Assembly (NCBI GenBank): GCA_017510605.1
Contig: JAFWMQ010000015.1
Coordinates: 62,001-126,000, forward strand
Source: Clostridiales bacterium
GTDB taxonomy: Bacteria; Bacillota; Clostridia; Saccharofermentanales; Saccharofermentanaceae
Direction: 5' to 3'
DNA: 64,000 nt
The first letter of the stretch is position 1, and each line of letters begins with the position of its first letter. A program made the position numbers and the translations under genes. Under the pieces are notes generated by a model, which worked only from the letters and a program-made list of their open reading frames with translations, searched no databases and had not been told where the DNA came from. This document shows positions 22,105 to 26,789 of the stretch, in pieces.

Positions 22105-23196
22105 TTGGACAGACTTGACTGTAACAGAAGCTATGACTGCTTTACCGGCAGCGGGATTGCTGAAGAATATGTTGCCGGATATATTCTCGAGCAGTATGAC
22201 AATAAAGATCTCGGTGATGGGAATATCAAGGTTGCCATTATCTCTGACAGACAGGTCAGCGGGTATTATTACAATGCTTTTGAGAATCAGTTTGTTGTAA
22301 GGAATGTCAAGACCTCCCTCATAACGATCGAGGAAGGCGAGCAGAATAAGAATCTTTCGCAGGTTAACAACGTTATTAAGGAACTTACTGACTTCGGGCT
22401 TAACGCAAATGACTGGATTATTGCTCTGGGCGGCGGAGCGGTTCACGATATTGCTGCTTTTGCTGCTGCCGTCTATACGGGAAGATCCCGCTATATTGCG
22501 GTTCCGACGACGCTGTCGTCTATGTCTGAGACATGCTGCTCCGACAGGGCATTTTTAAACTCCGGAAGCCGTAAGAATACCGCTTCTGCATATGTTTCAC
22601 AAACCGCTGTGTTTATAGATCCGAAGTTTCTTTCCACGGTTCCGAAAAAATATATTCCCAACGGTTACGCGCAGATCATAAGATATGCTCTTTTATCGGA
22701 TTTCGGCCTTTTGACTGAGCTTATCGGGATATCTGATTCAACGCTTTCTGATATTAGGGTATTCCTTAACCGGGTCTATGCAGCAAGAGCTGCCATTGAC
22801 AGGAAGAATCCTACGCTGCTCACATTGGGAAACGAACTTTCCGAAGCTATTGAGGGATACTTCAGATTTATGAACTATTCGGAGGGCGAAGCCTTAGCTT
22901 TAAGCCTTTTCGCCACGGTTCCTGATGATGCAAGGGCTGCTTTATCGGCGCTCTATATCAAGTTAAACCTGCCGACTGAACTTAAGGGAGTTAGTTTTAA
23001 CGCGATAATGAATTCTCTTAAGGATTCGTATCTGAAAGGGTCATCTTCGGATAAGCCTCTGGTCTGTTACGAGAAGAAAGACGGCAAGGGAAGCTGGGCT
23101 ATCTTAAATCCGTCGATGGAGGAAGCTTTATCGATCCTTGAAGAAAGGCTGAAGAAGATCACGGCCAAATCCGCTCCGATTGCCTCAAATGATTAG
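22105..23196 (+). CDS. 3-dehydroquinate synthase-like protein lacking the canonical metal site
   Basis: This 363-residue protein has the AroB/glycerol-dehydrogenase Rossmann half: IALGGGAVHDIAAFAAAVYTG near residue 110 and IAVPTTLSSMSETC near 133. True AroB continues with a glycine-rich SVGGKTGVN motif and has the metal-binding GH-FGHA-E segment. Here those positions read SDRAFLNSGSRKN and LTLGNELSEAIEG, so the expected His ligands are absent. It may act on another substrate or be a non-catalytic relative. Start is TTG 22105 after GAAAGGAA. It is divergent from gltX. The adjacent M28-like lipoprotein gives no pathway clue. Confidence 0.75.
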   Translation: MDRLDCNRSYDCFTGSGIAEEYVAGYILEQYDNKDLGDGNIKVAIISDRQVSGYYYNAFENQFVVRNVKTSLITIEEGEQNKNLSQVNNVIKELTDFGLNANDWIIALGGGAVHDIAAFAAAVYTGRSRYIAVPTTLSSMSETCCSDRAFLNSGSRKNTASAYVSQTAVFIDPKFLSTVPKKYIPNGYAQIIRYALLSDFGLLTELIGISDSTLSDIRVFLNRVYAARAAIDRKNPTLLTLGNELSEAIEGYFRFMNYSEGEALALSLFATVPDDARAALSALYIKLNLPTELKGVSFNAIMNSLKDSYLKGSSSDKPLVCYEKKDGKGSWAILNPSMEEALSILEERLKKITAKSAPIASND

Positions 23197-23207
23197 AATG
23201 CTTAGTG

Positions 23208-23213
23208 TATAAT
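23208..23213 (+). promoter_or_regulatory. -10 element nine bases before a start codon
   Basis: TATAAT in GTGTATAATT ends nine bases before ATG 23223. No ribosome-binding site lies between, suggesting a nearly leaderless mRNA. Confidence 0.45.
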
Positions 23214-23222
23214 TACCGGGTT

Positions 23223-24518
23223 ATGAGAAAAAGTATTGTCAGGAAAATTATTGCAGCAGCGGTTTGTTCCATGTTTTTGGTGCAGCCTGTTCTTTTGACA
23301 TCATGTAAGGGAAAAGAAAAATCGACTGAGAAACCTGCTGATTACGGTTCTTACGGATCTGATATTGCCAGAGAGATCGCAGCAAAGTATCCGGACAGGG
23401 AAGCTTATTCAAACGGAGAAGCCCAGACCGGTGCTTATATTGAAGAGAAGATAAAAGAACTCGGATACCAGCCTGAAGCCCAGAGTTTTCAAGGTCCAGA
23501 CGGGCGCACTTCGAAAAATTACATTGTCAGGGTAGAGGGAACCGGTTTTTACTGTGCCAATGAGGACGGCTCATTTGAACTGGAACACAGGGTTGCAGTG
23601 ATTGGTACACACTACGATGCAGCACTTCTTTCTGATTATTACGAAGAAGAGACCGAAGATGAAGAAGATTATGAGGATGAAGAACCCTCAGAAATCAAAT
23701 ATAGATTTGACGGGATCTCAGATAATGCATCCGGCACGGCATGCATCCTGACAGCACTCAAGGCTTTTAAGGATTATAAGAATGTCGCATATGATGTCTG
23801 GTTTGTTTTTTTCGGCGCGGGTACTGATAACTTTTCAGGGGCTGAAGCATTCTATCAGTCTCTCAGCAGCGAAGAACAGAAACTGATCGATGTAATGTAC
23901 GATGTTGACAGTCTGTACGCAGGCGACAAAGTCTATGCATCTTCCGGATACAAATCACTTGTACCGGATAAAAAATACGAGATGAGAAGAAAGCTTTATC
24001 AGGCATATGATGTCTGCTTTTCGAATACTTTGTATACTAACTACGGATTTGACCTTTATTACAATGAATCCGGTATCAAGACGGATATTGATGATGACGG
24101 AGTCAGTGATATCTTCAAGGAAATGCCAAAGACAGCTTCTGACTTCAGCGTTTTTGATGAAAGAATGATACCGGTCGTTTATTTCGAGAGTTACGAATAT
24201 AACTTCACTTCCATGAGCCAGATGAAGGAGACAAAGAACCTGAGCCTTCAGGACTTTGACGGAAATGTCAGAAGAACTCCTTCTGACTGCTCATTTTTTT
24301 TAGATTCTGTTCTTCTCGATGATGATTATGACCGTAATGGTGACGGCGAGATCGACTGCAGCGGTGACAGGCTCCAGATCAGGATCAATTGTGTTGCGTT
24401 TATTATCATTGAGTCGCTTCTTAAAGGTTCTGATAAGGGCATGACACCTTCCCAGTATGAAGAATACCGGGTTGAACAGACAAAACAGACTTATTCGTCC
24501 GAACCGTCACTGGTCTGA
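23223..24518 (+). CDS. M28-family peptidase-like lipoprotein
   Basis: It has a signal peptide and lipobox (LLTSC, Cys near residue 24) from the preferred ATG 23223; the in-frame GTG at 23205 would spoil the signal. The mature part has M28 motifs: GTHYDAA and DGISDNASGTACIL near residue 165 supply two zinc ligands. The usual FFGAEE catalytic pair reads FFGAGTDNFSG, so the general-base Glu is missing. An acidic insert (EEETEDEEDYEDEE) interrupts the metal-site loop. Two calcium-loop-like strings occur (DIDDDGVSD, DRNGDGEID). It is surface-anchored and may be a pseudo-peptidase or use a shifted acid. Confidence 0.75.
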   Translation: MRKSIVRKIIAAAVCSMFLVQPVLLTSCKGKEKSTEKPADYGSYGSDIAREIAAKYPDREAYSNGEAQTGAYIEEKIKELGYQPEAQSFQGPDGRTSKNYIVRVEGTGFYCANEDGSFELEHRVAVIGTHYDAALLSDYYEEETEDEEDYEDEEPSEIKYRFDGISDNASGTACILTALKAFKDYKNVAYDVWFVFFGAGTDNFSGAEAFYQSLSSEEQKLIDVMYDVDSLYAGDKVYASSGYKSLVPDKKYEMRRKLYQAYDVCFSNTLYTNYGFDLYYNESGIKTDIDDDGVSDIFKEMPKTASDFSVFDERMIPVVYFESYEYNFTSMSQMKETKNLSLQDFDGNVRRTPSDCSFFLDSVLLDDDYDRNGDGEIDCSGDRLQIRINCVAFIIIESLLKGSDKGMTPSQYEEYRVEQTKQTYSSEPSLV

Positions 24519-24608: not shown

Positions 24609-26090
24609 ATGTCTACCACATCTTTCATCAGCCAAATATTCGAATTCTTAGGCGAGCTTTTTAACAGCCTTGATAAAGGCACGCTTTTCTTTGGCAGTGT
24701 CTGGGATTTTATCAGATATGCGATAGATATTGTCCTCGTAACTTTCCTCTTCTACACGCTCCTTATGTTTATCAGGCAGACAAGAGCCTGGCAGCTTATC
24801 AAGGGTATTGTCCTCATCCTTGTTTTTGTAGCGTTCTGTGGTGTTATCGGACTCGACATGGTAGGCTTCATTTTCAACAGACTCCTTTACGTTGTTGCAA
24901 TGCTGTTTGTTGTACTGTTCCAGCCGGAATTAAGAAGAGCTTTGGAGACAGTTGGTCTTCGTACTTCCAGTGCTACCAATCCGTTCAGGCACAGCGAGTC
25001 AATAATGACAAAAGAAGAGCTCAACACATTTATCAAGGAGATCAGTTCTGCCTGCAAGGAGATGTCCAGGACATATACCGGAGCTTTGATCCTCATTGAG
25101 AGACATACGAGATTAGATGAACTTTTAGCTCAGGAAAACGCTGTTTCATTTGATTCTGAGGTTACCAGTTCGGTCCTTCAGAGTATTTTCTATAAAGGTT
25201 CGCCGATGCATGACGGTGGTCTGCTTATCCGTGACGGAAGAATAATAGCAGCCAGATGCCATGTTCCTCTCTCTGTTACCATGCATTCGCTCGAGCGTTC
25301 GGGAACACGTCACAGAGCGGCAGTAGGTGCCAGCGAGATGGGAGATACCGTTGCGGTAGTCGTATCGGAGGAAAGAGGCAAGACTTCTATTGCGGTCAAC
25401 GGAAGACTTTTCGAGATGAGATCTACTAAAGAGCTGGAAGCAAATCTCTCGTATCTTTTGGGACTTAAAGAATACGGCGGCGAGCAGAAAACATTTATTG
25501 GCAGGTTCTTTGATAAGCTCCACGGTAAATCAGGTTCCGGTGATAAGGTCCTGAGCAAGGAGGACGTTGAGAAAGCTGCCAAGAGCAAGGTTCCTGCTTC
25601 TGAACCTGTCGTAGCTGAGACGCAGGTGGAGATTGCAGGTGAACCTTCTGTGCCGATTACCATAAAGAATGCGGATCAGACCTCTAATTCAAAGCAGGTC
25701 GGAACTGCTACAAAGATAATCTTTATGGTTTTCTCGTTATTGATGTCCCTTTCTCTCTGGATCTATATACAGATCAATACAAACCCTGTTGTTACCAGGA
25801 ATATCACTGTTCCGATCCAGTACGACCAGACAGAGAATCTTCCCGCAAATATGGATGTATCGTATCCTATCAAGACTGTTGATCTTGAGATCGTAGGACG
25901 TGCCGGAACTGTAAATTCAATGACGGCTGATGATATTATTGCTACGATCGATTATTCGAAGCTTGATTCCAGCGATTCAGGAGTAGTCGAACTTCCTGTT
26001 ACCATTACGGGTAAGGACGGAAATGTATATTTCCGTGTCGAACGCCAGCTCCCGGAGACCATATCTGTAACGGTATATTCAGTCAATTAA
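24609..26090 (+). CDS. cdaA: Diadenylate cyclase CdaA fused to a CdaR-like YbbR domain
   Basis: It makes the essential second messenger c-di-AMP from two ATP. Residues 1-100 hold the membrane segments of CdaA. The DAC domain follows with YKGSPMHDGGLLIRDGRI (the DGA motif as DGG, near 200) and SGTRHRAAVG (RHR motif, near 236). A linker of about 90 residues leads to a further membrane span (IIFMVFSLLMSLSLWIYIQI, ~370) and one YbbR domain (NPVVTRNITVPIQYDQTENLP). In most Firmicutes, cdaA and cdaR are separate adjacent genes; here one frame encodes both with a single YbbR unit. ATG 24609 is eight bases after GAAGGAC. No glmM follows. Confidence 0.9.
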   Translation: MSTTSFISQIFEFLGELFNSLDKGTLFFGSVWDFIRYAIDIVLVTFLFYTLLMFIRQTRAWQLIKGIVLILVFVAFCGVIGLDMVGFIFNRLLYVVAMLFVVLFQPELRRALETVGLRTSSATNPFRHSESIMTKEELNTFIKEISSACKEMSRTYTGALILIERHTRLDELLAQENAVSFDSEVTSSVLQSIFYKGSPMHDGGLLIRDGRIIAARCHVPLSVTMHSLERSGTRHRAAVGASEMGDTVAVVVSEERGKTSIAVNGRLFEMRSTKELEANLSYLLGLKEYGGEQKTFIGRFFDKLHGKSGSGDKVLSKEDVEKAAKSKVPASEPVVAETQVEIAGEPSVPITIKNADQTSNSKQVGTATKIIFMVFSLLMSLSLWIYIQINTNPVVTRNITVPIQYDQTENLPANMDVSYPIKTVDLEIVGRAGTVNSMTADDIIATIDYSKLDSSDSGVVELPVTITGKDGNVYFRVERQLPETISVTVYSVN

Positions 26091-26126
26091 TTGATTTTTA
26101 TTGCCTTCGGGCAGAAAGGAAAATTT

Positions 26127-26789
26127 ATGTTGGAAACAAAAGATCTTATCGATTTGACTCACACCCTCGCCGCTCCTATTTTGGAAGACAAGAAATATCC
26201 ATGGGAAGCTCTCCCGTTGATCAAAGAATTTATCCTTCAGCTGGGACCGACACTTGATCCTGAAGTCTATGAGAACAAGGGCGATGGAATCTGGATCGCA
26301 AAGAGCGCCAAGGTATTTGATTCCGCATATATTGCTGGTCCCTGCATCATCGGGCCTGAGACTGAAGTCCGTCAGTGCGCATTTATCAGAGGAAGCGCTC
26401 TTATCGGAAGCAAGTGCGTTATCGGAAACTCCACGGAACTAAAGAATGTAATCATCAGTGATAATGTTCAGGTTCCTCATTACAACTATGTAGGAGACTC
26501 GATCTTAGGTTATAAGTCACATCTCGGTGCAGGTGCCATTACATCCAATGTTAAGTCTGATAAGACTCTTGTATGTGTTAAGAATGGTGATGAGGTAATT
26601 GAGACCGGCCTTAAGAAGTTTGCTGCCATAGTAGGTGACAACGTAGAAGTCGGATGCCAGAGTGTGCTTAATCCCGGTACAGTCATCGGCAAAGGCTCAA
26701 GAGTTTATCCTCTCTCAAGAGTAAGAGGCGTTATCCCTGCAAGATCGATCTTCAAGGATGCCGACAATATCGTAAGCATCGAGGAATGA
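26127..26789 (+). CDS. GlmU-like left-handed beta-helix acyltransferase/nucleotidyltransferase relative
   Basis: This 220-residue protein contains hexapeptide repeats of the left-handed beta-helix (AKVFDSAYIAGPCIIGPETEVRQ and later VIGKGSRVYPLSRV). It resembles the C-terminal domain of GlmU (NSTELKNVIISDNVQVPHYNYVGDSILG; HLGAGAITSNVKSD), but has no N-terminal uridylyltransferase domain. The HYNYVGDS segment matches the catalytic His region of GlmU acetyltransferases. It could acetylate a sugar-phosphate or bind UDP-sugars. The start follows GAAAGGAAAA. The reading frame runs upstream to the cdaA stop, but those residues are not supported. Confidence 0.8.
   Translation: MLETKDLIDLTHTLAAPILEDKKYPWEALPLIKEFILQLGPTLDPEVYENKGDGIWIAKSAKVFDSAYIAGPCIIGPETEVRQCAFIRGSALIGSKCVIGNSTELKNVIISDNVQVPHYNYVGDSILGYKSHLGAGAITSNVKSDKTLVCVKNGDEVIETGLKKFAAIVGDNVEVGCQSVLNPGTVIGKGSRVYPLSRVRGVIPARSIFKDADNIVSIEE

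Follow-up and report, generated by a model that had tools for sequence, protein, structure and literature searches.

In the passages of the literature cited here, CdaA is described as crossing the membrane three times and carrying the DGA and RHR motifs in a DAC domain on the cytoplasmic side (PMC10243994, PMC9259658, PMC11520302, PMC6368335). CdaR is described as one span followed by outer YbbR domains; it touches CdaA via the spans, and c-di-AMP rose after cdaR/ybbR was disrupted in P. gingivalis and S. aureus (PMC10243994, PMC9259658, PMC11520302). The effects of CdaR are reported to be opposite between species (PMC9259658). When the S. aureus proteins were co-expressed in E. coli, in which the empty-vector control gave no c-di-AMP signal, conclusive evidence that YbbR regulates was not obtained (PMC6368335), and the cited part of a 2023 review terms the function of CdaR unknown (PMC10243994). 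CdaA-CdaR fusions as such are already known. The same part of the review lists them in some streptococcal strains (A5LQF8, E1M7C3 and V8IIN0) and terms them large (PMC10243994).

The window, the whole stretch of DNA analysed here, is 64,000 nucleotides long and comes from a member of the order Saccharofermentanales. It carries a gene in which the CdaA and CdaR parts form one chain, whereas the parts are separate in the CdaA (DacA)-CdaR (YbbR)-GlmM system of Firmicutes (Table 1). The cyclase type, the CdaR helix and, most likely, the first YbbR domain are the same in the two. The streptococcal fusions share the covalent joining of CdaA to CdaR, a likeness that holds at the level of their description (PMC10243994). 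Compared in the same way, they are large and belong to some strains, whereas the fusion found here is order-wide and has one YbbR domain, against three or four in an ordinary CdaR (PMC10243994). As far as the portions of the literature searched show, the order-wide form with a single YbbR domain is new, and a published survey of DAC architectures may list it. We believe that the gene encodes a genuine fused c-di-AMP synthase, in which CdaA, a flexible cytoplasmic linker and the CdaR helix with its first YbbR domain replace separate cdaA and cdaR genes. The probability of this reading was put at roughly 70%.

Table 1. Features of the cdaA-ybbR fusion gene and its downstream neighbour in the window.
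Feature	Window positions	Strand	Details or basis
cdaA-ybbR fusion gene	24609..26090	+	493 codons plus TAA; same frame order-wide
Three N-terminal membrane helices, CdaA_N, residues 31-103	24699..24917	+	Pfam PF19293, model, hydropathy
DAC diadenylate cyclase domain, residues 147-266	25047..25406	+	Pfam PF02457; solved diadenylate cyclases match
HDGG, the DGA motif with Gly in third place, residues 201-204	25209..25220	+	sequence
RHR motif, residues 234-236	25308..25316	+	kept in 96/96 distinct proteins
Flexible, presumably cytoplasmic linker, about residues 288-361	25470..25691	+	low pLDDT
Fourth membrane helix, counterpart of the CdaR helix, residues 366-391	25704..25781	+	model, hydropathy, alignment with separate CdaRs
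Single YbbR domain, presumably outside the cell, residues 394-491	25788..26081	+	fold matches; hhalign
Lone GlmU-like left-handed beta-helix protein, start codon uncertain	26091..26789	+	Pfam Hexapep

The gene is a single open frame from ATG to TAA with one uninterrupted translation. Nine bases 5' of the ATG lies GAAGAAGG, which by eye resembles a ribosome-binding site. The sequence-only reading had described CdaA spans, a DAC domain, a linker, an extra span and one YbbR domain in a single frame, and this description agreed with the frame, the Pfam matches and the structure model. The AlphaFold2 model of the whole chain had a mean pLDDT of 72.4 (58 aligned sequences). It placed the N-terminal helices at residues 31-57, 60-80 and 83-103 with the DAC domain next, and the fourth helix, for which the hydropathy span was 363-390, was followed by strands.

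Both parts of the cyclase half scored above their Pfam cut-offs in the window protein, CdaA_N (PF19293) with 29.9 bits against 23.8 and DAC (PF02457) with 116 bits against 27. A phmmer search of the PDB matched 17 sequences, all within residues 38-290 (best E 9.5e-39). The named matches were diadenylate or c-di-AMP cyclases or DAC-domain proteins, with the exception of 2fb5, a hypothetical membrane-spanning protein. The RHR motif of CdaA-type cyclases was found within GTRHRAA at residues 232-238. For the NCBIfam equivalog TIGR00159, the window protein scored 186.8 and missed the cut-off of 188.8 by 2 bits; 9 of 10 other fused proteins passed it, and L018 (176.1) was below.

The exact DGA motif was absent from the window protein, and DGG was found instead, as had been read from the letters at the outset. 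The Asp and Gly preceding the variable third residue were kept in all 96 distinct proteins, a set that includes two proteins cut by contig ends (L027 and L055), and Gly stood for Ala in 71 of the 96. Counted by genome, the third residue was Gly in 51 and Ala in 62 of the 113 fused genomes, the window's included, and all 51 DGG genomes belong to the window's own family. None of 46 cyclases from outside the order had DGG. The DGG/DGA state changed six times on a quick tree of 112 rows, from which one fused row was omitted as too short in the compared region. Because the exact DGA motif was not found, we describe the window cyclase, judged by its sequence, as CdaA-derived or CdaA-type and not as a textbook member in the strict sense. 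We infer that the DAC domain makes c-di-AMP. One DAC was found in the window's own genome, that of the fusion, and because it is the sole one, a loss of cyclase activity despite the DGG seems unlikely.

The YbbR family PF07949 was not matched in the window protein, either by hmmscan or in a search of its own genome. We conclude that the C-terminal part is a YbbR domain despite the absent Pfam match, as judged by its modelled fold, by profile comparison and by its relatives. The AlphaFold2 model of residues 362-493 had a pLDDT of 86.3, and its best Foldseek match in the PDB was 5hqh (E 9.6e-5). The top four Foldseek rows in the PDB were the YbbR-named entries 5hqh, 3lyw and 2l3u and one entry not so named, 2kq1 (BH0266). 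In a second fold comparison, four rows exceeded a Z of 8, all of them YbbR-named: 5hqh (Listeria lmo2119) with 9.5, and 3lyw and 2kpu (both Dhaf_0833) and 4qdy (SP_1560) with 9.3, 8.9 and 8.8, respectively. The next rows (Z 7.2 to 5.5) were 2kq1, 2kxy and 2l3u, the last being the only one named as YbbR, and ribosomal chains followed with Z of 4.8 and below. The solved domains 5hqh, 3lyw, 2kpu and 4qdy share the fold over 86-93 residues, but the solved YbbR proteins are 13-21% identical to the fusion domain and are not described as fused to a cyclase.

A profile search of the PDB sequences had 2kxy, labelled uncharacterized, as its sole match (E 3.6e-5), and the profile of the fused C-terminal part matched the separate CdaR of another order with an hhalign E of 1.6e-9. 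In three of ten relatives scanned, CdaA_N, DAC and YbbR were all above the Pfam cut-offs in one protein; YbbR was below the cut-off in five of the others and absent in two. PF07949 was matched in 52 of the 113 order genomes, above the cut-off in 51. All 53 matches in the order shared a contig with the DAC match, except for one weak match (E 4.2e-4) in a 1264-residue frame on contig C7 of G080.

Each fused protein had one YbbR match (114/114 rows, that is, 113 genomes plus P0001), and the three or four domains of CdaR were not found in any of these rows. The residues beyond the match numbered 0 to 86; by length, such a tail is too short for a second domain in nearly all fused proteins. The fourth helix aligned with the helix of separate CdaRs. 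When the fused C-terminal profile was compared with 34 outside loci, 30 matched, and the best matched part of CdaR was the N-terminal helix and first domain; the profile includes the helix, a bias towards the first CdaR domain. Because the profile matches that part best, the fusion most likely kept the CdaR helix and the first YbbR domain, as far as alignment can tell. From the cytoplasmic DAC domain we infer an N-in C-out orientation for the predicted helix directly before the YbbR domain, which would place this domain outside the cell.

The YbbR half was less conserved than the DAC half among the 96 distinct proteins, with means of 0.47-0.71 per ten residues in the blocks past residue 391, below most DAC blocks. 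Together with the single domain in place of several, and with PF07949 unmatched in the window protein and in 61 of the 113 order genomes (two of them without a DAC match), this would fit a YbbR part that is no longer regulatory and is a mere fourth membrane anchor or a CdaR relic fused by chance. However, at least 95% of the 96 proteins retain W384, Q388, N392, P393, G430, R431, G458 and Y474, every order genome with a long enough contig has the domain (113 of 113), and the fold predicted for it is confident. We consider the loss of regulation unlikely.

The linker was modelled with low confidence, pLDDT being under 50 at residues 288-337, 344-347 and 349-361 of the fusion model. Between residues 285 and 376 lie 90 residues in the window protein and 35-121 among the 113 fused genomes, about ten of them belonging to helix 4. 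Because the linker is of low predicted confidence and variable length, a rigid lever is unlikely, and such a linker suggests a tether with contact between the membrane helices. A long linker of low predicted confidence would also suit a fused gene whose product acts as two proteins, by cleavage of the linker or by an internal start such as the one suspected in S. aureus ybbR in the cited part of PMC6368335. By eye, however, Met is absent between residues 286 and 366, which bears on Met starts, and the linker has no conserved processing site; a two-protein product is, in our opinion, quite improbable.

For a genuine fused synthase, a mechanism beyond the fusion itself is plausible. The fourth helix would pack against the CdaA helices, as reported for the separate CdaR helix, and the outer YbbR domain would adjust the activity or assembly of the cyclase through this membrane contact. 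The action of YbbR would now be in cis, at a fixed 1:1 ratio. Such a ratio had been put forward in the sequence-only reading; it follows from the fusion, because the CdaA and YbbR parts are joined, while a benefit from it is presumed. A signal may pass from outside to inside through the fusion, as the sequence-only reading had also proposed. More tentatively, the protein could be a one-piece transmembrane receptor cyclase, in which the outer YbbR domain senses a signal from the envelope, be it a wall precursor, a lipid or turgor, and uses helix 4 to set the only synthase; we regard this as possible, on the doubtful side. If true, the smallest unit of CdaR able to regulate would be one YbbR domain, and its remaining two or three repeats would be dispensable. 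An order with only the helix and one YbbR domain on its only cyclase would point to the working core of CdaR, a regulator with a debated role, of which the fusion would be a simple natural version. The fusion is also a natural single-chain construct with fixed ratio and partner, useful for structure work and suited to testing control of c-di-AMP synthesis by the outer domain.

A search of related genomes for DAC plus YbbR architectures, proposed with the sequence-only reading, was carried out in 118 genomes, namely 113 order genomes and five less complete relatives, and 115 had a DAC match. The match was present in 111 of the 113 order genomes, one apiece in all 111, and in four of the five relatives, G016 (64% complete) being without. 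G002 and G031 (93 and 96% complete) had no DAC match, which reflects either gaps in the drafts or a true loss. For each of the 115 genomes with a DAC match, the locus was read again from stop to stop. DAC and YbbR were in one frame in 113 of the 115; the other two, G037 and G103, reach the contig edge ahead of the YbbR part. Separate DAC and YbbR were found in none of the 115. G117 and G023 were scored as fused though a contig cuts one end, DAC and YbbR still being in one frame, and in G026 and G029 the fused frame lies on contigs of 1.8 Mb. Related loci, taken as the best 80 of 95 confirmed candidates (46-88% identity), overlap the order genomes and do not form an independent sample; 79 of these 80 run in one frame to residue 480 or beyond, and L055, the remaining locus, is cut off by the end of its contig. 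Named relatives among the matches listed were Saccharofermentans sp. and MAGs labelled 'Ruminococcaceae' or 'Clostridiales bacterium', many of them recovered from ruminants. A sequencing or assembly error that deleted a stop or frameshift, the refuter named at the outset and a natural worry in a draft genome of 18 contigs, is excluded for practical purposes, because the rest of the order has the same fused frame, the 1.8 Mb contigs and the uninterrupted related loci included.

Outside the order, 46 loci were compared: 30 best DAC matches, three odd cases and 13 mostly long-frame picks, eight of them from one genus, which makes this a non-random sample. A separate cdaR frame lay downstream on the same strand in 42 of the 46, beginning either within the last part of the cdaA frame or just past its stop, in keeping with the earlier statement that the c-di-AMP synthase and YbbR are normally separate neighbours. 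In four of the 46 there was no YbbR within the stretch examined. Fused cdaA-cdaR was found in none of the 46; the wider scans of the class and phylum covered best matches only, and a rare fusion elsewhere may escape them. In a tree of the cyclases from 31 fused and 45 outside proteins (76, after one duplicate outside row was removed from 77), with fused rows at or above 75% identity thinned to the 31, a single branch (SH-aLRT 100) set the fused proteins apart from all the others. This pattern is as expected from one origin of the fusion, on a tree that is unrooted.

Candidates for second fusions were rejected, the cdaA and cdaR frames proving separate in each case. They were frames of 704-706 aa in six genomes of genus g339 and frames of 734 (G227), 479 (G564), 378 (G699), 395 (G158) and 380 aa (G126). 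The apparent 706-aa frame of G614 is 292+1+413, two genes joined across a single stop. Nine of the 42 separate outside pairs share a reading frame with one stop between, and six of the nine come from one genus. In L189-L194 (G657, G841, G614, G713, G745 and G760), a single TAA or TAG separates cdaA and cdaR in the same frame, as is also observed in L169 (G227). Loss of the stop in such same-frame pairs is a possible route to a full-length CdaA-CdaR fusion.

In the window's own genome, searches with the fused-family profile and with Pfam found no other YbbR, and the separate cdaR whose absence had been proposed for confirmation was not found by the profile search. The c-di-AMP riboswitch RF00379 was not found in this genome, which, like the DGG motif and the missed TIGR00159 cut-off, speaks against the synthase reading. 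A 7TMR-HDED domain was found; this is the family of the extracellular domain of PgpH (PMC10243994).

In part of the order, glmM follows the fusion, as in the canonical cdaA-cdaR-glmM operon. GlmM was encoded directly after it, at 16-169 bp, in L064, L087, L089, L174, L175, L178, L179, L181 and L182, of which L064 and L181 are probably one genome, and TIGR01455 was above its cut-off in 8 of 8 tested. Among nine longer order loci (L175-L182 and L184), glmM adjoins in five, is 1.8 kb off in L180 and is not in the stretch in L176, L177 and L184. Unlike in the canonical operon, glmM was not found directly downstream of the window fusion, and the genome's own copy lies on another contig, C14. The GlmU-like neighbour in the window scored 149 bits for NCBIfam Arch_glmU, under the cut-off of 292. 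In 39 of the 80 related loci (best 80 of 95), a GlmU-like gene lay no more than 200 bp past the fusion, and four of the 39 had glmM behind it. In the same set (best 80 of 95), glmM lay between the fusion and a GlmU-like gene in 10 loci, neither gene was found despite at least 3.5 kb downstream in 22, six were too short, and three were other cases. The GlmU-like protein, a possible partner in the glucosamine-phosphate pathway, resembles the acetyltransferase half of GlmU. The fusion locus resembles what is left of a cdaA-cdaR-glmM operon after loss of glmM in the window's lineage.

The GlmM proteins encoded downstream of the fusion differ in their identity to that of the window genome. It was 79-84% in L070, L071, L077, L078, L080, L093 and L095, 64-66% in L081, L082, L084, L085 and L086, and 42-44% in L064, L087 and L089. 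Such differing sequences suggest that glmM may have been replaced or transferred. Upstream of the fusion on the same strand, the window carries genes for a dehydroquinate-synthase/iron-alcohol-dehydrogenase-like protein (22105-23196, +) and an M28 peptidase (23205-24518, +). Within the flanks examined, relatives of the former were found in 43, and relatives of the latter in 58, of the 80 related loci (best 80 of 95).
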